From: Streptosporangiaceae bacterium
Lineage (GTDB): Bacteria > Actinomycetota > Actinomycetes > Streptosporangiales > Streptosporangiaceae
DNA: 8,064 bases
NCBI GenBank assembly: GCA_030045215.1
Contig: JASIBJ010000173.1
Location: 1-8,064, forward strand
Direction of reading: 5' to 3'
This document shows positions 732 to 7,301 of this stretch, in pieces. Made by a program: the position numbers and the translations under genes. The first letter of the stretch is position 1. The number at the start of each line of letters is the position of its first letter. A model generated the notes under the pieces. That model was given only the letters and a program-made list of their open reading frames with translations. It was not told the origin of the DNA and made no database searches.

Positions 732-1754
732 TTACCCGGCTGAACGGGCGACCTCCGCGCCCGCGCCCGCCGCCAGCTCGTCGATGGACGCCAGCTCTTC
801 CGGAGTGAAGGACGTGTGCCCGACGGCAGCCAGGTTCTCCTCCAGCTGCGCGACACTGCTGGCCCCGATCAGGGCCGAGGTGACGCGCGGATCACGCAGG
901 ACCCACGACAGCGCAAGCTGGGCCAGCGACTGGCCGCGGTCGCTCGCGATCTGGCCGAGCGCCCGGACGTGCGCGAGCTTCTGCTCGCTGATGTCGTCGG
1001 CGGACAGCGTGCCGTCCCGGCTGGCCCGTGAGCCCGCGGGAACGCCGCCGAGGTACTTGCCGGTCAGCACGCCCTGGGCCAGCGGGGAGAAGACGATGCA
1101 GCCGATCCCCTGACCGCCGAGCACGTCGAGCAGGCCGCCTTCGATCCAGCGGTCGAGCAGTGAATACGACGGCTGGTGGATCAGCAGTGGCGTGCCCATC
1201 GCGCGCAGGATCGCAGCGGCCTCGGTGGTCTGCTCCGCCGAGTACGACGAGATGCCGGCGTAGAGCGCCCGGCCGGACCTGACCGCCGTGTCGAGGGCGC
1301 CCATGGTCTCCTCGAGCGGGGTGTCAGGGTCGGGCCGGTGGCTGTAGAAGATGTCGACATAGTCCAGGCCCATCCTGGCCAGCGACTGGTCCAGGCTGGC
1401 CAGCAGGTACTTGCGCGAGCCCCATTCCCCGTACGGGCCTGGCCACATGTCCCAGCCGGCCTTGGTCGAGATCACCAGCTCATCGCGGTAGCCGCGCAGG
1501 TCCGTGCGCAGGATCTCGCCGAAGTTCGACTCGGCCGATCCGTACGGCGTGCCGTAGTTGTTGGCCAGGTCGATGTGCGTCACGCCGAGGTCGAACGCCC
1601 GCCGTATGATCGCCCGCTGCCGCGTCAACGGGTCATCCTCGCCGAAGTTCTGCCACAGCCCGAGCGAGATCTCCGGGAGCTGCAGCCCGCTGCGCCCGCA
1701 CCTGCGGTAGGGCATCTTTCCGTCATACCGGTCCGAGGCGGCTACATAGGTCAT
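732..1754 (-). CDS. YghZ/GPR-type aldo/keto reductase (probable L-glyceraldehyde 3-phosphate reductase)
   Basis: Aldo/keto reductase of the Kv-beta-like AKR14 group, typified by E. coli YghZ, which reduces L-glyceraldehyde 3-phosphate and other aldehydes with NADPH in the cytoplasm. The protein is 340 residues and tracks YghZ almost end to end from memory: MPYRRCGRSGLQLPEISLGL near the start, HIDLANNYG (60-68), STKAGWDMWPGPYG (96-109), SRKYLLASLDQSL (113-125), IFYSHRPD (135-142), and LLIHQPSYSLLDRW and LIGASSVAQLEEN later. The catalytic tetrad is complete: D62, Y67, K98, H139. The frame stays open to a TTG at 1781, but ATG 1754 aligns with the YghZ start; neither has a clear Shine-Dalgarno. 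It lies upstream of the SDR in a likely two-gene operon and diverges from the murA-like gene across 115 bp. The physiological substrate is inference: relatives may detoxify methylglyoxal or other aldehydes. Confidence 0.93.
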   Translation of the reverse strand: MTYVAASDRYDGKMPYRRCGRSGLQLPEISLGLWQNFGEDDPLTRQRAIIRRAFDLGVTHIDLANNYGTPYGSAESNFGEILRTDLRGYRDELVISTKAGWDMWPGPYGEWGSRKYLLASLDQSLARMGLDYVDIFYSHRPDPDTPLEETMGALDTAVRSGRALYAGISSYSAEQTTEAAAILRAMGTPLLIHQPSYSLLDRWIEGGLLDVLGGQGIGCIVFSPLAQGVLTGKYLGGVPAGSRASRDGTLSADDISEQKLAHVRALGQIASDRGQSLAQLALSWVLRDPRVTSALIGASSVAQLEENLAAVGHTSFTPEELASIDELAAGAGAEVARSAG

Positions 1755-1832
1755 GGTCAGCAGTCTGCCATTGCCGGTCAAAATCAGTCATCCCAGGCGC
1801 CTGCCCGCCGGGTTGTCCCTGCTCGCGAGGCT

Positions 1833-1862
1833 TTGGCGGAATGGGCGGGGAGTTCCTAGAGT
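1833..1862 (+). promoter_or_regulatory. Candidate promoter of the murA-like gene, leaderless geometry
   Basis: TTGGCG (1833-1838), an 18-nt spacer, then TAGAGT (1857-1862), with 7 nt to ATG 1870. This fits an actinobacterial housekeeping promoter (TTGnnn, TAnnnT) with transcription starting at or next to the A of the ATG. A competing reading is that GGGGAG at 1847-1852 is a Shine-Dalgarno for the in-frame GTG at 1861, 8 nt downstream; the two exclude each other. Pattern match only. Confidence 0.45.
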
Positions 1863-1869
1863 GGTAGCC

Positions 1870-3168
1870 ATGACGCAAACGTGGCAAGTCGAACCTTCCG
1901 GACCGCTGAGCGGCGATATCACGGTGCGCGGGTCCAAGAACGCGGTGACCAAGCACATGGTGGCGGCCATGCTCGGCCGGGGGCCGAGCAAGATCCGCAA
2001 CGCGCCCGAGGTGGGCGATGTGGACATTACCGCGGCGATGCTGGAGTCCGTCGGGTTCGAGGTACGCCGGGAGGGCGACGAGATCACGATCGGCCAGGGC
2101 CGAGCGCTGCAGCCACGAGTTCCGCAGGCATTCACCGGGCTCAACCGGATCCCGATCTTGATGCTCGGGCCGCTGCTGCACCGGACCGGAGAGGCCTTTG
2201 TGCCGCTGGTCGGTGGCGACGCGATCGGGCGGCGGCCGGTCGACTTTCACGTGGCGGCGCTGGAGGCTCTCGGCGCCGAGGTCAGTGTCGGCGCCGACGG
2301 CATCACGGCACGGGCCAGCCGGCTGCGCGGCACGCGCATCGACCTGCCCTACCCCAGCGTCGGGGCGACCGAGGCCGTGCTGCTGACCGCCGTGCTGGCC
2401 GAAGGAAAGACCGTGCTGCGCAACGCGGCGACCGAGCCAGAGGTGGTGGAACTCGCCCTGTTCTTGCAGCGGATGGGCGCCCACATCGAGCTCAGTCCGG
2501 AGCGGCGGATCATCATCGAGGGCGTGCGCGCGCTACGGGGCGCATCGACCCGGCTGGCCGGGGACCGGATTGAGGCCTTCTCGTACCTGGTGGCAGGGTT
2601 GATCACCCGCGGCGAGGTCCGGGTGCACGGCTGTCCGCAGGACCGGCTGGTCACCGCGATCACCACGCTGGCCAGGATGGGCGCCCGGTTCGAAATCACC
2701 GATGAGTGGATCACCGCGACGGCGACGACCGGACTGCGGCCCGCGGCCGTGCACACCGACACCCACCCCGGGTTCATGACCGACTGGCATCAGCCGCTGC
2801 TGGTGCTGTTCACGCAGGCCGACGGAATGTCGGTGCTGCACGAGACGGTCTTTGAGAACCGGCTCGTCTATGTGCCCGCCCTGCAGCAGATGGGTTGCGA
2901 GATCGAGGTGTTCGCGGCGTGCCTGGGCGGGCCGGCCTGCCGGTTCCATGACACGGACGCCGTACACTCCGCCGTTGTCCGCGGCGGATCCAAGCTGCAA
3001 GGCGCGGACGTGACGCTGCCCGACGTGCGGGCCGGCTTTTCCGGCGTGCTGGCAGCCGCCGTCGCGGATCAGCCGTCCGTGCTACGCGGCATCGCGCACA
3101 TCGAGCGTGGCTACCACCGGCCGTTCGAGCAGTTCACCTCCCTCGGACTGAGCCTGCGCCGCAGCTGA
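1870..3168 (+). CDS. murA: UDP-N-acetylglucosamine 1-carboxyvinyltransferase (MurA-like), Asp active-site form
   Basis: Transfers enolpyruvate from phosphoenolpyruvate to UDP-GlcNAc, the first committed step of peptidoglycan synthesis, in the cytoplasm. The 432-residue protein keeps the catalytic set of E. coli MurA: K23 and N24 (GSKNA; K22/N23 in E. coli), R93, R122 (RRPVD), D305 (GFMTDW) and R413 (HIERGY). The residue matching E. coli Cys115, the fosfomycin target, is D117 in VGGDAIG (codon GAC, 2218-2220), as in mycobacterial MurA. Compared with E. coli there are about 16 extra residues around 348-365, including C351 and C357 (CLGGPACRF). ATG 1870 gives the usual N-terminus; GTG 1861, four codons earlier, has a better-placed GGGGAG. 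It stands alone, divergent from the reductases and ahead of a sigma gene. It may be the essential MurA or a second paralogue; some nucleoside-antibiotic enolpyruvyl transferases also belong to this fold. Confidence 0.9.
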   Translation: MTQTWQVEPSGPLSGDITVRGSKNAVTKHMVAAMLGRGPSKIRNAPEVGDVDITAAMLESVGFEVRREGDEITIGQGRALQPRVPQAFTGLNRIPILMLGPLLHRTGEAFVPLVGGDAIGRRPVDFHVAALEALGAEVSVGADGITARASRLRGTRIDLPYPSVGATEAVLLTAVLAEGKTVLRNAATEPEVVELALFLQRMGAHIELSPERRIIIEGVRALRGASTRLAGDRIEAFSYLVAGLITRGEVRVHGCPQDRLVTAITTLARMGARFEITDEWITATATTGLRPAAVHTDTHPGFMTDWHQPLLVLFTQADGMSVLHETVFENRLVYVPALQQMGCEIEVFAACLGGPACRFHDTDAVHSAVVRGGSKLQGADVTLPDVRAGFSGVLAAAVADQPSVLRGIAHIERGYHRPFEQFTSLGLSLRRS

Positions 3169-3332: not shown

Positions 3333-3830
3333 ATGGAACAGGACCAGCGCGAGTTCGCCGAGTTCTACGCCACGGCCTGGAGTGACTGCCTGCGGATTGT
3401 CATGGTCAGCGTGGCTGACCGGCCGCTGGCCGAGGACCTGGTGGCGGAGGCCTTCACCAAGGCGTGGGCGTCGTGGCGGAAGGTACGCGGGCTGGACGAG
3501 CCACGAGCGTGGGTCATCCGTACCGCGATGAACGCACGCGTGTCCTGGTGGCGGCGGCACCGCCGCGAGGTGACGCTGGGCAGCCACAACACCATGGCGG
3601 CCAGCAGTCAGGACCTGGCCGTCGATAGCTCCCTGGTGACCGCGTTGCGGCGGCTGCCGGTCCGGCAGCGCGAGGTGATCGCGCTGCGGCTACTGCTCGA
3701 CCTGGACACCGGCACCACCGCCAAGATGCTCGGCATTTCCAGCAGCACCGTCACCACCCACCTGCACCGGGCCATCGGCGCTCTGCGCCGCGAGATCATT
3801 GCCCTCGACGATCAGGAGTTGGCGCTGTGA
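3333..3830 (+). CDS. ECF (group 4) RNA polymerase sigma factor, SigE-like actinobacterial type
   Basis: A 165-residue ECF sigma factor: only regions 2 and 4, directing RNA polymerase to a small regulon. Region 2 spans about residues 7-75, with the LAEDLVAEAF core of region 2.2 (32-41) and a basic end with tandem tryptophans (SWWRRHRR, 71-78). A short linker leads to region 4 (about 100-153), with LRRLPVRQREVIALR (105-119) and the helix-turn-helix TAKMLGISSSTVTTHLHR (129-146). Length is normal and no extra C-terminal domain is present. Start choice is forced: a TAG stop lies at 3327-3329 in frame and the next ATG, at 3402, would cut into region 2. No Shine-Dalgarno is well placed, so the message may be leaderless, though I could not place a convincing -10. 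Its TGA overlaps the GTG of the following membrane-protein gene by 4 nt, the standard sigma/regulator arrangement. The signal sensed is unknown. Confidence 0.93.
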   Translation: MEQDQREFAEFYATAWSDCLRIVMVSVADRPLAEDLVAEAFTKAWASWRKVRGLDEPRAWVIRTAMNARVSWWRRHRREVTLGSHNTMAASSQDLAVDSSLVTALRRLPVRQREVIALRLLLDLDTGTTAKMLGISSSTVTTHLHRAIGALRREIIALDDQELAL

Positions 3831-4510
3831 ACAACGACCACACCTATAACGCAATCACCGGCCGTCTCGCCAGGATGCGGGACTCCCTCTGGGAGGAGAC
3901 ATACCCGATCATCCCGGCCGCCGAGATCATCGCCAGGGCCCGCCGTCGCCGCCTACGGCGACGCCTGGCCTCCGGCACAACCGGAGTCCTGGCACTGGCG
4001 GCCGGGGCGGCAGTTGCCGTGACCGCGCTGCTGCCAGCCAGTCACCCGGCCAGCCACCAGCGCAGCCATCCTGCTCAAGCCCAGCTGGCGGCCTGGACAG
4101 TGACCAAGGAGGCTGACGGCAAGATCCTAATCATAATCCGCGAGTTTCGCGATCCGGCCGCACTGCAACGCAGACTCCGCGCCGATGGCATCCCGGCCAG
4201 CGTCGTGTTCTATCCGGGCCGATTGCCGGCCGGCCTAAGTCCATTGCGCATCGTCCAGTTCAAGGGCAACCCGTGCCAGGAATACGGCGGCGGGGAAAGC
4301 CAGGCGCAGAACGTGGTGCAGGGCCCGCCGTGGCACGAGGTCGTTCAACCCTCGGCCATCCCCAGCGGTGCTGGCGTCCAGTGGGTTGCCAGCAGAAACA
4401 TCGGTTACTATCCCCTGTCGCTGCTCCGGCCGGGCCAGCGCTCCAAGGATGGGCCGATCGCGCTCTTGGAGTGGCTGGTCCAAGCCAGCCCACAATGCAG
4501 CGGCAGCTGA
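3827..4510 (+). CDS. Single-pass membrane protein paired with the ECF sigma factor, putative anti-sigma/regulator
   Basis: 227 residues, no family I can name with certainty. Starts at GTG 3827, overlapping the sigma stop (GTGA), with AGGAG at 3814-3818 spaced 8 nt, so translation is probably coupled. Order: a cytoplasmic N-terminus (1-46) with an amphipathic stretch and a very basic patch RARRRRLRRRL (37-47), one hydrophobic segment (about 49-70, SGTTGVLALAAGAAVAVTALL), a His/Ser/Pro-rich spacer (72-84), then an extracytoplasmic domain with WTVTKEADGKILIIIREF (90-107), DPAALQRRLRADGIPASV and two cysteines, C150 and C224, which could form a disulfide. The positive-inside rule puts the N-terminus inside. 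The zinc anti-sigma motif HxxxCxxC is absent, so if this is the anti-sigma it is not of the ZAS type. Function is inferred from the overlap and topology alone. Similar sigma/membrane-protein pairs are, as I recall, frequent in actinobacteria. Confidence 0.8.
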   Translation: MNNDHTYNAITGRLARMRDSLWEETYPIIPAAEIIARARRRRLRRRLASGTTGVLALAAGAAVAVTALLPASHPASHQRSHPAQAQLAAWTVTKEADGKILIIIREFRDPAALQRRLRADGIPASVVFYPGRLPAGLSPLRIVQFKGNPCQEYGGGESQAQNVVQGPPWHEVVQPSAIPSGAGVQWVASRNIGYYPLSLLRPGQRSKDGPIALLEWLVQASPQCSGS

Positions 4511-4545
4511 GCCCTCCGCCGATCACCCGGAGACTCTCATCGCCC

Positions 4546-4585
4546 GGCCGGAGGGCCACGCGCCGACCCGCGCGGCCCTCTGGCC
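4546..4585 (+). terminator. Strong GC hairpin terminating the sigma/membrane-protein operon
   Basis: 4546-4562 pairs with 4569-4585 around a 6-nt loop (CCGACC): a 17-bp stem with one A/C mismatch and one G-U pair, nearly all other pairs G-C. It begins 35 nt after the TGA at 4508-4510. No T-run follows (ATAACCGG), as is usual for terminators in high-GC actinobacteria. It is the strongest hairpin I found in the window. Confidence 0.7.
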
Positions 4586-4602
4586 ATAACCGGCGAGCAG
4601 CC

Positions 4603-4640
4603 TTAGAAGTGGTACAACCTGTCGTACTACTACCGAGGGA
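4603..4640 (+). promoter_or_regulatory. Palindromic operator/promoter-like region, antitoxin-type
   Basis: An imperfect 22-bp palindrome at 4609-4630 (8 of 11 pairs match), with GGTAC and GTACT half-site cores, sits directly before GAGGGA (4635-4640), a Shine-Dalgarno 9 nt ahead of ATG 4650. TTAGAA (4603-4608) and TACTAC (4625-4630), 16 nt apart, are weak -35/-10 candidates that would put the palindrome inside the promoter. GTAC-centred palindromes at the promoter are known for YefM-type antitoxin autoregulation. What it regulates now is inference: the small ORF and the GNAT-AAA gene are directly downstream. Confidence 0.45.
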
Positions 4641-4649
4641 ATGACCGTC

Positions 4650-4754
4650 ATGTCGATCGCCGCGAGCGGGCATCGCGGCGGCCACGAGAGCGCCGGGCCC
4701 GTCTCAGGTCAGCAGTCCCCGGAGGGCTGGCGGCCAGGACCGGGGGAACACTGA
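4650..4754 (+). pseudogene. Short ORF (34 aa) whose first codons resemble a YefM antitoxin start
   Basis: ATG 4650 is 9 nt after GAGGGA, a good ribosome site; an in-frame ATG at 4641 sits too close to it. The peptide begins MSIAASGHR, close to the MSITASEAR start I know from actinobacterial YefM antitoxins (6 of 9 identical). It then turns into low-complexity Gly/Pro/Ser/His sequence and stops at TGA 4752-4754. No antitoxin fold could be made from it and no toxin follows. Readings, in order of preference: the 5' scar of a deleted antitoxin gene, a translated leader coupled to the next gene (its stop is 4 nt before GTG 4759), or chance. Too short for a firm call. Confidence 0.35.
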
Positions 4755-4758
4755 CCTG

Positions 4759-6042
4759 GTGACGCCCTGGCGAATCCGCGACTTCCACGAGGACGACCTT
4801 GATGCCGTCATCCGCCTCTGGGATGACCCGGCGGCTGGCGGAACATCGCCGGTGTTCGGGGTCTCTGACCTGATCGGGGCTGTTCGTGCCGATTCGCCCG
4901 CCGTGGTAGCGGCAGTGGGCGAAGAAGTTGTCGGCGCCGTGGTCGCGACCGTCAGCGGCGCCCGCGCGCAGCTGATGCGGATCAGCCTGGCCGCGGGCTG
5001 GCGCCGGCAGGGTATCGGCAGCGCGCTGCTCACCGAGCTCGAGCGACGGCTGGTCGCCACAGGAGCCCACCGGATCACATGCCTGCTGGCGGCCGGCAAC
5101 GAGGTGGGCGCGCTGGCGCTGGAGAACTGCGGTTACAGCGTGCACCCCGCCATGCGGCTCTACGAGAAGCTTGAGCCGGTTGGCCCGGGCGATGTGGGAA
5201 TCCTGGCCCAGCTCGGCGGGCGCATGATCCGGGCGGGGTCCTGGGCGCAGCTCAGCGGCATGGCCAGAGAAAAGGAGCTGATCGAGCGCCGCGTCATCCT
5301 GCCGCTGGCCAATTCTCAGGTCGCTGGCCGGCTCGGGCTGGTGCCGCCGCACACGGTCATCTTGTTCGGGCCGCCGGGTACCGGCAAGACGACGTTCGCC
5401 AAGGGCGTCGCGTCCAGGCTCGGCTGGCCGTTCGTGGAGCTGTTCCCGTCCCGGCTGGCGGGCGCCTCGCCGGGCGGGCTTCCGGCCGCGCTGCGCGAGG
5501 CATTCGGCTTGATCGCCGAGCTCGACAAGGTCGTGGTCTTCATCGACGAAGTCGAGGAGATCGCCGGCTCGCGCCGTCAGGGCGCAGGGGCCGCCGGTCC
5601 CGGGGTCACAAACGAGATGCTGAAGCTGATCCCGCCGTTCCGCGAGCAAGAACAGCGGCTGCTGATCTGCGCAACCAACTCGGTGCGAGACCTGGACACG
5701 GCCTTCCTGCGGCACGGGCGGTTCGACTACGTAATCCCCGTCGGACCGCCCGACGACCAGGCGCGGCAGGCGATCTGGGAGCGGTACATGACCCAGATGC
5801 CGCACTCCGGAGTTGACATGGCGGCGATAACCGGGCACTCGAACCTGTTCACGCCAGCCGATATCGAGTTCGCCGCGAGGCGGACGGCCCAGCTCGTGTT
5901 CGAGCGCGTCGTGCTCGACCACGGCGAGGAAGTCGTGACAACCGCCGACGCCCTGGCCGGCATCGAGCAGACGAGGCGAACGCTAGCGCCCGAGACCGTC
6001 GAGCAGTTCGAGCAGGACATCGAAAGCTATGCCCGGCTGTGA
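4759..6042 (+). CDS. GNAT acetyltransferase-AAA+ ATPase fusion protein
   Basis: 427 residues, two domains. Residues 1-137 are a GNAT N-acetyltransferase: ITC-type N-terminus WRIRDFHEDDLDAVIRLW, a beta-hairpin region, the acetyl-CoA loop WRRQGIGSALL (81-91) and the closing NEVGALALENCGYSVHPAMRLYEK region. A short linker leads to a FtsH/VPS4-like AAA+ module (about 160-427): Walker A GPPGTGKT (204-211), Walker B VVVFIDEVEE (258-267), sensor 1 LLICATN (301-307), arginine-finger candidates R318 and R321 (LRHGRFD), and a C-terminal lid with TPADIEFAARR (365-375). Both sites look intact, so an ATP-driven, probably oligomeric machine with acetylation activity is expected; the acetyl acceptor and the AAA substrate are unknown. 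GTG 4759 follows GGGGGA (4742-4747) at 11 nt. I recall this pairing being annotated as bifunctional in actinobacteria, without a role. It is convergent with the MFS gene. Confidence 0.9.
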   Translation: MTPWRIRDFHEDDLDAVIRLWDDPAAGGTSPVFGVSDLIGAVRADSPAVVAAVGEEVVGAVVATVSGARAQLMRISLAAGWRRQGIGSALLTELERRLVATGAHRITCLLAAGNEVGALALENCGYSVHPAMRLYEKLEPVGPGDVGILAQLGGRMIRAGSWAQLSGMAREKELIERRVILPLANSQVAGRLGLVPPHTVILFGPPGTGKTTFAKGVASRLGWPFVELFPSRLAGASPGGLPAALREAFGLIAELDKVVVFIDEVEEIAGSRRQGAGAAGPGVTNEMLKLIPPFREQEQRLLICATNSVRDLDTAFLRHGRFDYVIPVGPPDDQARQAIWERYMTQMPHSGVDMAAITGHSNLFTPADIEFAARRTAQLVFERVVLDHGEEVVTTADALAGIEQTRRTLAPETVEQFEQDIESYARL

Positions 6043-6065
6043 TCGGCGGCAGCGCGGCAGGAGGC

Positions 6066-7301
6066 TTAGCCCGCGGTGGCGGCGCGATCGCGGATTTCTG
6101 GCGGCTGTTCGGGTGCTTGCTCGGTGACTGGTGGCCGGGCCGGGCGGGCGATTACCGGGATGGCGGCACCGGATACGACGGCTGCCGTGATGATGAGCAA
6201 CGGCCGGTAGCCGAGGGTGTCCACCAGGGCTGCTCCGATCGTGATCGAGAGCGTCTGGGCCAGGTCGGTCGCCATGTAGGAGGCGGCCAGGGTCCGGCCC
6301 TGCAGGTTCGGCGGCGAGTAGCGCTGGGTGGCGGTCGTGACCACGACCGCGCAGAGCGGAACCGCAACCCCGAAGATCGCGAGCGCGGCGCAGGAGGCCG
6401 GGAGCACGGGAATCGTGTAGATGAGGCTCGCGACCGCCCATGCGGCCAGCGCGATCCCGAGCGTCCGGGCCTCGCCAGCGCGCCTGATCAGCCGGCTTAC
6501 CGCGAGCCCGCCGATGATGGACCCGACGGCCTGGATGCTCATGAGCACGCCGAAGAAGGAGGCCGGCCTGCCGATCGCCGCGATGACGGCGAACGTCACC
6601 GATTCGTAGAAGCCGAGCACCAGCATGGCGATGGTGGCGCTCAGCGTGACCTGAGCCAGGAGGGGCGTGCGCCGCAGGTGTGCCAGGCCGGCCACCAGCT
6701 GGGCGACGACCGGCTGCCCGGCGGCCGGGCGCGACGTGGCCTCGGCGACGTGCACCGACAGCAGCGCGACGATCGCGACGGCGAACGTGACGGAATCGAG
6801 CACGGCCAGACAGCCGCCGCCGAAGCTCGCGTAGATCGCCGCCCCGGCCAGCGGCGAGGCGATGCGCAGGCCCTGGCTGATGGTCGTGCGCGCGGCGTTG
6901 GCGCCGACGAGGTCCTCATCTGCCAGCAGATCTTTGAGCAGCGCCGATCCGGCCGGACTGATGACCGTCGACGCGGCTCCGTAGCAGAGCGCCACCGCGT
7001 ACATCACCCACAGGTCAGAGCGCGAGTGGACCAGCACAAGTGCGAGTACCGCGGCACCGGCCGCGGCGTTCGCGACGATCAGCAGCGGACGGCGCCTGAC
7101 CCGGTCGACAAGCTGACCAGCCAGCGGCGCGGCCAGGCAGGGCAGGCCCTCCGCCAGGAAGATGGCCCCGGCTGCCGCGTTGCTGCCGGTCAGGTCCTTG
7201 GCCCAGATGCCGAGCGACAGGTACAGCGCGCTATCGCCGAAGCTGGAGACCGAGTTGCCGATCAGCAGCCGCCGGAAGCGCGCATCACCGAGCGCGCTCA
7301 T
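6066..7301 (-). CDS. MFS transporter, MFS_3/EntS-like efflux type
   Basis: Inner-membrane major facilitator protein of 411 residues, probably 12 transmembrane helices and proton-driven export. Seen: an N-terminal FRRLLIGNSVSSFGDSALYL first helix typical of the MFS_3 group, MFS motif A as GQLVDRVRRRP (62-72) between helices 2 and 3, alternating hydrophobic segments across both halves with a central charged loop (about 185-200), a second-half counterpart near GGLAVSRLIRRAGEA, and a proline-rich cytoplasmic tail (PARPPVTEQAPEQPPE). The ATG at 7301-7299 overlaps the TGA of the ArsR-type regulator by 4 nt (ATGA), so the two are translationally coupled and share the regulator's promoter. Regulator-first pairs of this kind usually control efflux of a drug or metabolite; the substrate cannot be read from sequence. 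It ends 23 bp from the convergent GNAT-AAA gene with no obvious terminator between them. Confidence 0.92.
   Translation of the reverse strand: MSALGDARFRRLLIGNSVSSFGDSALYLSLGIWAKDLTGSNAAAGAIFLAEGLPCLAAPLAGQLVDRVRRRPLLIVANAAAGAAVLALVLVHSRSDLWVMYAVALCYGAASTVISPAGSALLKDLLADEDLVGANAARTTISQGLRIASPLAGAAIYASFGGGCLAVLDSVTFAVAIVALLSVHVAEATSRPAAGQPVVAQLVAGLAHLRRTPLLAQVTLSATIAMLVLGFYESVTFAVIAAIGRPASFFGVLMSIQAVGSIIGGLAVSRLIRRAGEARTLGIALAAWAVASLIYTIPVLPASCAALAIFGVAVPLCAVVVTTATQRYSPPNLQGRTLAASYMATDLAQTLSITIGAALVDTLGYRPLLIITAAVVSGAAIPVIARPARPPVTEQAPEQPPEIRDRAATAG

Follow-up and report, generated by a model that had tools for sequence, protein, structure and literature searches.

AAA+ rings are usually steered by protein adaptors, and a functional pairing of an ATPase with a GNAT domain in one chain is found in the RNA acetyltransferase TmcA/NAT10/Kre33, which differs from the protein described here in its helicase-type rather than AAA ATPase, its RNA substrate and the position of its GNAT domain behind the ATPase. 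For AAA proteins, the available sections of one account describe two modes of remodelling, by N-domain motion and by pore-loop threading, and assign to threading ATPases an aromatic-hydrophobic pair in pore loop 1 (PMC9265785). The regulated lysine acetyltransferases (KATs), namely the cAMP-GNAT Pat, the ACT-GNAT AAPatA and the acyl-CoA-synthetase-like-GNAT enzymes, resemble our protein in joining a GNAT domain to a nucleotide or metabolite module, and the passages on KAT types I-V in three papers name no AAA type (PMC11254643, PMC6434083, PMC8556138). The available part of the last of these describes the active-site Tyr as essential in RimI, YiaC, YjaB and PhnO, and places a Phe at this site in GCN5 and PCAF (PMC8556138). 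A GNAT fold that binds another protein in a CoA-dependent manner has a precedent in PanZ (PanM), whose target is PanD according to the portion of the study available (PMC4410942); unlike our protein, PanZ is free-standing and ATPase-free.

The gene under study lies in a window (the whole stretch of DNA analysed) of 8,064 nucleotides from a Streptosporangiaceae bacterium. It is a single open frame on the forward strand, 4759..6042, with a GTG start at 4759 and a stop at 6042, and it encodes 427 aa. Pfam detects both Acetyltransf_1 (PF00583, E=5.4e-09, residues 44-115) and AAA (PF00004, E=2.2e-26, residues 200-328) over their cut-offs. The GNAT-fold N-terminal domain, delimited by PF00583/PF13508, an AlphaFold2 (AF2) model and relatedness to E. 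coli YpeA, occupies residues 4-140 (4768..5178, forward) and includes the acetyl-CoA pyrophosphate loop RRQGIG (residues 82-87, 5002..5019, forward). It is followed by a conserved linker, the AAA large domain and a helical lid (residues 148-427, 5200..6039, forward), with the conserved linker residues W162, G167 and M168 ahead of the AAA large domain. In the AF2 model (mean pLDDT 89.7, pTM 0.68) the GNAT domain has the secondary-structure order b1-a1-a2-b2-b3-b4-a3-b5-a4, and fold and [QR]xxGx[GA] loop together place it in the GNAT superfamily. A sequence-only reading of this DNA had described a one-chain, 427-residue GNAT-AAA fusion carrying RRQGIG, Walker A, Walker B, sensor 1 and arginine fingers; the single frame and the Pfam matches to both domains bear out the fusion, and each of the motifs is found in the window's chain.

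A homology search of 5.8 billion proteins with the window's protein scored 7999 candidates, of which 4902 matched at E <= 1e-10. All of the best 120 of these 4902 homologues (the window's own included) contain both GNAT and AAA, at 72-100% identity and mostly 427 aa, so the fusion is not a chance product; the joint search of both domains proposed by the sequence-only reading thus recovered a large family, named by NCBI 'bifunctional GNAT family N-acetyltransferase/ATP-binding protein'. This family is large and widespread in actinobacteria, occurring in 29/396 evenly sampled actinobacterial genomes (E <= 1e-60) and in 19/297 genomes of the Planotetraspora family (E <= 1e-100), the centre genome being counted in both. 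Matches were also found in 23 plasmid records, all at <60% identity; 22 of them cover >=80% of the query and the remaining one (H23) covers residues 148-426. Four phage records matched as well, each over the AAA part only, and we accordingly rejected a phage origin of the fusion. In the open-access literature, to which the search was confined, we found no study of this architecture, in agreement with the earlier statement that it has no established function. GNAT-AAA is thus a real but so far unstudied protein of bacteria: where a remodelling ring powered by ATP normally carries its front end, it has a GNAT fold.

Residue counts were made on 117 aligned rows, comprising 112 GNAT-AAA fusions and 5 GNAT-free relatives. 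Left out were a broken gene (L072), archaeal Cdc48 proteins (L073-L080) and duplicates of kept genes (L081-L084, L106, L113 and L123), and one alignment further omitted L036, L061 and L064 as incomplete; the close family, window included, amounts to 35 rows. Walker A (GPPGTGKT, residues 204-211, 5368..5391, forward) is the same in 117/117 rows, save that residue 211, which follows the Walker lysine, is Thr or Ser. Walker B (VVVFIDE, residues 258-264, 5530..5550, forward) with D263 and E264, sensor 1 Asn307 (5677..5679, forward) and both arginine fingers, R318 and R321 of RHGR (5710..5721, forward), are likewise complete in 116/117 rows, the exception (L125) being a row that diverges from the family past residue 259. 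With Walker A, the Walker B DE, the sensor 1 Asn and two arginine fingers in the second region of homology, the window's protein has the attributes of a classical AAA ATPase. Its fold is closest to the p97/Cdc48 type: among the best 50 of 1960 Foldseek matches to the AF2 model, the top PDB entries were p97/Cdc48 and 26S Rpt chains. By sequence and Foldseek together, the top PDB matches belong to the p97/Cdc48, NSF, PAN and 26S Rpt class, which shares with the window the AAA core, both arginine fingers and sensor 1; the scores against NCBIfam's curated models fell far below their cut-offs (PAN 119.9 of 500 bits, CDC48 111.4 of 802.65, FtsH 89.2 of 600).

The window differs from this class in its GNAT N-domain, its single AAA ring and its pore loop. 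Residues 234-242 (5458..5484, forward), which we take to be pore loop 1 on our own reading of the p97-like ATPase alignment and general AAA anatomy, carry no aromatic in 111/117 rows, the window among them. The six rows with an aromatic there read Tyr-Gly-Leu and come from one Streptomyces group. The window thus lacks the aromatic-hydrophobic dipeptide of threading unfoldases and, because the aromatic is missing in nearly the whole alignment, unfolding of a substrate by threading appears doubtful.

Turning to the GNAT domain, its nearest solved relative by sequence is YpeA (E=1.3e-08). In the alignment, the Tyr of YpeA's MYERLGY, five residues before the Gly-Tyr end, stands opposite Leu121 (5119..5121, forward), which we take, from this alignment and from general GNAT anatomy, to be the equivalent of the general-acid Tyr. 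Residue 121 is Leu in 69, Phe in 40, Met in 2 and Ala in 1 of the 112 fusions and Tyr in none, so the active-site Tyr of the RimI/YiaC/YjaB/PhnO type is absent from the window and from all of these fusions; as GCN5 and PCAF carry Phe at this site, Leu or Phe at 121 is no proof of a dead enzyme. Position 109 in strand 5 is acidic in 0/112 fusions, and strand 71-78 contains an acid in 20/112, the window having none. The window's domain therefore shares fold and acetyl-CoA loop with single-domain GNATs of the YpeA and RimI type, but differs from them in having Leu at the place of the catalytic Tyr and in being fused to a motor. It also scored under the curated cut-offs of PRK03624 (presumably YpeA's model; 55.4 of 124 bits) and RimI (23.9 of 86.4), and its similarity to PanZ is at superfamily level only (PF12568, E=0.0034, under the cut-off).

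The acetyl-CoA loop motif is kept in 91/112 fusions, has His for Arg in 3 and is lost in 18, and R82, G85 and G87 are invariant in the 35 close-family rows, window included. Since the loop is present and the Tyr at 121 and the acid at 109 are missing, the window's GNAT domain looks, at the sequence level, like one that keeps acetyl-CoA binding and not catalysis in the usual mode. The earlier view that both active sites are intact hence stands for the AAA site, which is complete, and for the acetyl-CoA loop, but not for the general-acid Tyr. Two further positions were recorded along the way: alignment position 68 is acidic in 73/91 loop-bearing fusions versus 2/18 loop-less ones and is Ala in the window, and position 71 is Trp in 87/91 loop-bearing fusions and Gln in the window.

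The loop losses were placed on a tree of the AAA columns alone (99 rows, quick method). The motif scored was [QR]xxGx[GA], and R-to-H variants were counted as lost in the tree (20/94); the count of 18/112 is a later one, in which the three R-to-H rows were set apart as 'near'. Fourteen of these 18 losses fall into two well-supported clades, one of 10 rows of Rubrobacter/Acidimicrobiia type (SH-aLRT 99) and one of 4 rows from Propionibacteriaceae/Tsukamurella/Brevibacterium (SH-aLRT 100), while the other four loop-less rows (L032, L050, L087 and L108) retain part of the loop. Under the stricter test, loop absence takes 7 changes on the tree, of which 4 are forced by well-supported branches. Because the Rubrobacter/Acidimicrobiia-type clade is basal, loss there is read from GNATs in general and not from the rooting. 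A loop-less member (L105) is still predicted to fold in GNAT secondary-structure order (mean pLDDT 84.8). The sequence-only reading had named homologues consistently lacking one active site as a sign against its view; these do occur in defined lineages, with the AAA site undegraded, and not in the window's own subfamily, where the loop is intact in 35/35 rows.

We compared selection on the two domains in 37 disjoint close pairs, of which 30 are loop-bearing, 4 loop-less and 3 mixed or near. The ratio dN(GNAT)/dN(AAA) had a median of 0.88 (range 0 to 2.04) in loop-bearing pairs and of 2.60 (range 1.71 to 4.67) in loop-less pairs, so that the ranges touch; the difference has a Mann-Whitney p=1.5e-4, to be taken only as a guide, since two clades supplied all the loop-less pairs and the pairs have part of their history in common. 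Values for the other three pairs, mixed or near, were 1.25, 2.60 and 3.03. Plain GNAT dN/dS overlaps between the groups (0 to 0.37 loop-bearing versus 0.29 to 0.39 loop-less), and our reading of selection comes from the contrast between GNAT and the AAA part of the same gene, not from this value. For the window itself, dN/dS was 0.09 for GNAT and 0.23 for AAA when paired with L114, and 0.32 and 0.23 when paired with L115. By this measure, purifying selection acts on the GNAT domain of loop-bearing proteins; in loop-less ones the constraint on the domain is relaxed in comparison with the motor, without having vanished.

The five GNAT-free relatives (L066-L069 and L071; four Thermodesulfobacteriota and one labelled Myxococcota) belong to the same AAA subfamily, with 39-41% identity to the window over about residues 148-427, but carry in place of GNAT an N-terminal piece that resembles the end of DUF4032 (E 9e-06 to 8e-04 in the three scanned, one over the cut-off). 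A homology search from one of them gave 3427 matches at E <= 1e-15, and among the best 120 of these AAA is present and a GNAT Pfam domain absent. The names among the matches listed are AAA or ATP-binding ATPase only. The evolutionary pattern as a whole points to the motor as the fixed part of these proteins and to the acetyltransferase part as a swappable, sometimes degenerate, front end.

Upstream of the fusion in the window, an ECF sigma factor gene (3333..3830, forward; Pfam PF08281 and PF04542; SigE-fam_strep 127.1 bits, under the 141.55 cut-off) overlaps a 227-aa frame (3827..4510, forward) that matches no Pfam family and, judging by its translation, is perhaps the anti-sigma factor of the adjoining ECF sigma. 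The two frames (3333-4510) are separated from the GNAT-AAA start by 248 bases, and a search of 4300-6200 for sigma-70-like promoters gave none. An MFS transporter gene (6066-7301; PF07690, E=2.9e-32) lies on the opposite strand, end to end with the fusion. Conserved neighbours, which the sequence-only reading had suggested listing, did not emerge: ORF clustering over 80 loci and the window gave no conserved partner gene, and neither did Pfam on 135 proteins encoded around the fusion at 34 of those 80 loci, where the commonest family was MFS (6/135). As the genes were predicted simply from third-position GC, the 135 include spurious frames.

The reading that we prefer, at a probability of roughly 0.42, is that GNAT-AAA is a classical AAA remodeller with a CoA- and partner-binding GNAT N-domain that is moved by ATP, and whose conserved job is non-catalytic. 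The protein would be a classical-clade AAA+ ATPase that forms homo-oligomers, most likely hexamers, with the GNAT fold as N-terminal domain at the place held by the N-domains of the p97/NSF type. In the window's lineage, this domain would bind acetyl-CoA or another acyl-CoA together with a putative partner protein, which would be selected through binding that depends on CoA state; ATP hydrolysis would then move the N-domains, so as to remodel or release the partner in an NSF-like manner without pore threading, acetyl transfer not being the conserved job. Remodelling driven by the N-domain fits better than threading because the motor is invariant, the N-domain exchangeable or degenerate and the pore loop non-aromatic, and CoA-dependent partner binding, as in the proposed parallel to PanZ, fits a domain that has retained its acetyl-CoA loop but lacks the usual catalytic residues. 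Against this reading count the lack of a conserved neighbour, the Phe of GCN5/PCAF, the AF2 pTM of only 0.68 and, in the selection data, the touching ranges of the dN ratio, the overlap in plain GNAT dN/dS, the origin of the loop-less pairs in two clades and the disparate GNAT values of 0.09 and 0.32 for the window's two pairings; moreover, in loop-bearing proteins selection holds GNAT and motor to a similar degree, which would be expected of an active enzyme too. If the reading holds, a built-in metabolite-binding N-domain would couple carbon status directly to the remodelling of proteins. The invariant motor beside loop-less GNATs also offers a natural contrast, between loop-bearing and loop-less orthologues, for the ATPase response to acetyl-CoA.

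The main competitor, which we regard as possible, is a genuine protein or small-molecule acetyltransferase whose motor presents or refolds a target that GNAT then acetylates, with universal stress proteins as natural candidate substrates. Such an enzyme would be in keeping with the intact loop of most fusions, the GNAT dN/dS of the 30 loop-bearing pairs and the Phe of GCN5/PCAF. The mycobacterial GNAT PatA, moreover, acetylates the universal stress protein MSMEG_4207, as stated in the accessible part of PMC6640162. In Arthrobacter (L037 in G004, L090 in G016, and L063), in G202 and in L072, the fusion has a universal stress gene beside it. Of 28 genomes, an author-chosen subset of the fusion-bearing ones, at least 3 have such a gene within <=1 kb versus 0.14 expected, two of the three being Arthrobacter. 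An acetyltransferase is opposed by the absence of the general-acid Tyr and of the acid at 109 from all 112 fusions, by the rarity of acids in strand 71-78, and by loop loss that leaves the motor unharmed. The idea of the sequence-only reading that a target is modified during remodelling therefore keeps its basis in a chain that links an intact AAA motor covalently to a GNAT domain with an intact loop, and is weakened as regards acetylation by the missing Tyr, the lost loops and the different N-domain of the sister family. A form of the idea in which acetyl-CoA gates the ATPase is the better one; developed in full, with a GNAT pseudo-enzyme as N-domain on a p97-like ring, acetyl-CoA level switching the remodeller and repeated loop loss marking lineages that freed the motor, it would be the first acetyl-CoA-gated AAA+ motor, a proposal we consider rather unlikely as it stands. 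Clearly less probable still is a conventional threading unfoldase with GNAT as a passive docking domain, for the nearness to Cdc48/PAN-type AAA in sequence and fold and the Tyr-Gly-Leu of the six Streptomyces rows are set against a pore loop 1 without aromatic in the other 111 and an acetyl-CoA loop that is invariant across the window's close family.

A role in stress or starvation is possible under the preferred reading, and a more specific statement, compatible with the other readings, would make GNAT-AAA part of a DevR/OsdR-type regulon for stress or dormancy (regulon content from the available part of PMC5069765); we hold this to be somewhat improbable. It derives from a few loci. In L133, the closest relative with long context, the fusion is accompanied within 16 kb by Hsp20, two pyridoxamine-oxidase genes and three OsdR-like sites, one of them ~94 bases upstream of GNAT-AAA (P=0.0025 for this cluster of stress features, in a test picked after looking); L115 has a pyridoxamine oxidase and a partly matching universal stress protein frame upstream, and plasmid pDK2 brings two Hsp20 genes, a DyP peroxidase and encapsulin. 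Across the family, however, an OsdR-like site lies upstream in 1/112 fusions versus 0.60 expected, the sole match being L114, the window's closest relative among genomes, and Hsp20 lies within 10 kb in 1/54 genomes versus 0.29 expected. The window itself has no such site and no Hsp20, pyridoxamine oxidase, universal stress protein or encapsulin-type neighbours. A stricter DevR pattern occurred in 6/116 upstream regions at one mismatch and in 0 perfectly. Dormancy-regulon membership is thus unsupported as a family trait and stays a lead from few loci. That the protein is an ATPase of anti-phage defence akin to IetA/IteA is highly improbable: the family matches (IetA E=1.2e-22; IteA 71.1 bits, where the curated cut-off is 510) are weak, that to IteA is restricted to the AAA core, the four phage records match over the AAA part only, and no gene for a protease, the partner of IteA/IetA, is among the window's genes. 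The neighbours show no defence set, defence families numbering 6 in the 135 proteins, each in <=2, and a defence context was rejected.

Among plasmid-borne copies, the one on pDK2 of Rhodococcus sp. DK17 (L143) follows the two Hsp20 genes and precedes the DyP peroxidase-encapsulin pair, and that on Paenarthrobacter pADNL1 (L146) comes directly after aceA and aceB of the glyoxylate shunt, an adjacency that is suggestive in that it fits an acetyl-CoA-responsive protein. Of four further plasmid contexts, one is a run of mostly hypothetical genes, one a recombinase region, one has hyp hydrogenase genes and one is of mixed metabolism. Two full-length GNAT-AAA copies per genome were seen in Arthrobacter ISL-65 (G004), a Streptomyces (G001) and Rhodococcus opacus (G008). 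One row (L004), from a contig labelled as a Bifidobacterium breve MAG, clusters with Mycobacteriales/Streptomyces-type rows in the AAA tree, and its contig is probably mis-binned. Elsewhere in the window, MurA (1753-3168) passes NF006873 and TIGR01072; as its longest frame overlaps a divergent aldo-keto reductase gene, its true start likely lies later. Finally, in the broken Streptomyces gene (L072:9911-11650), the fusion stops past Walker A and continues directly as the reading frame of a universal stress protein, a junction that looks like the product of a deletion.
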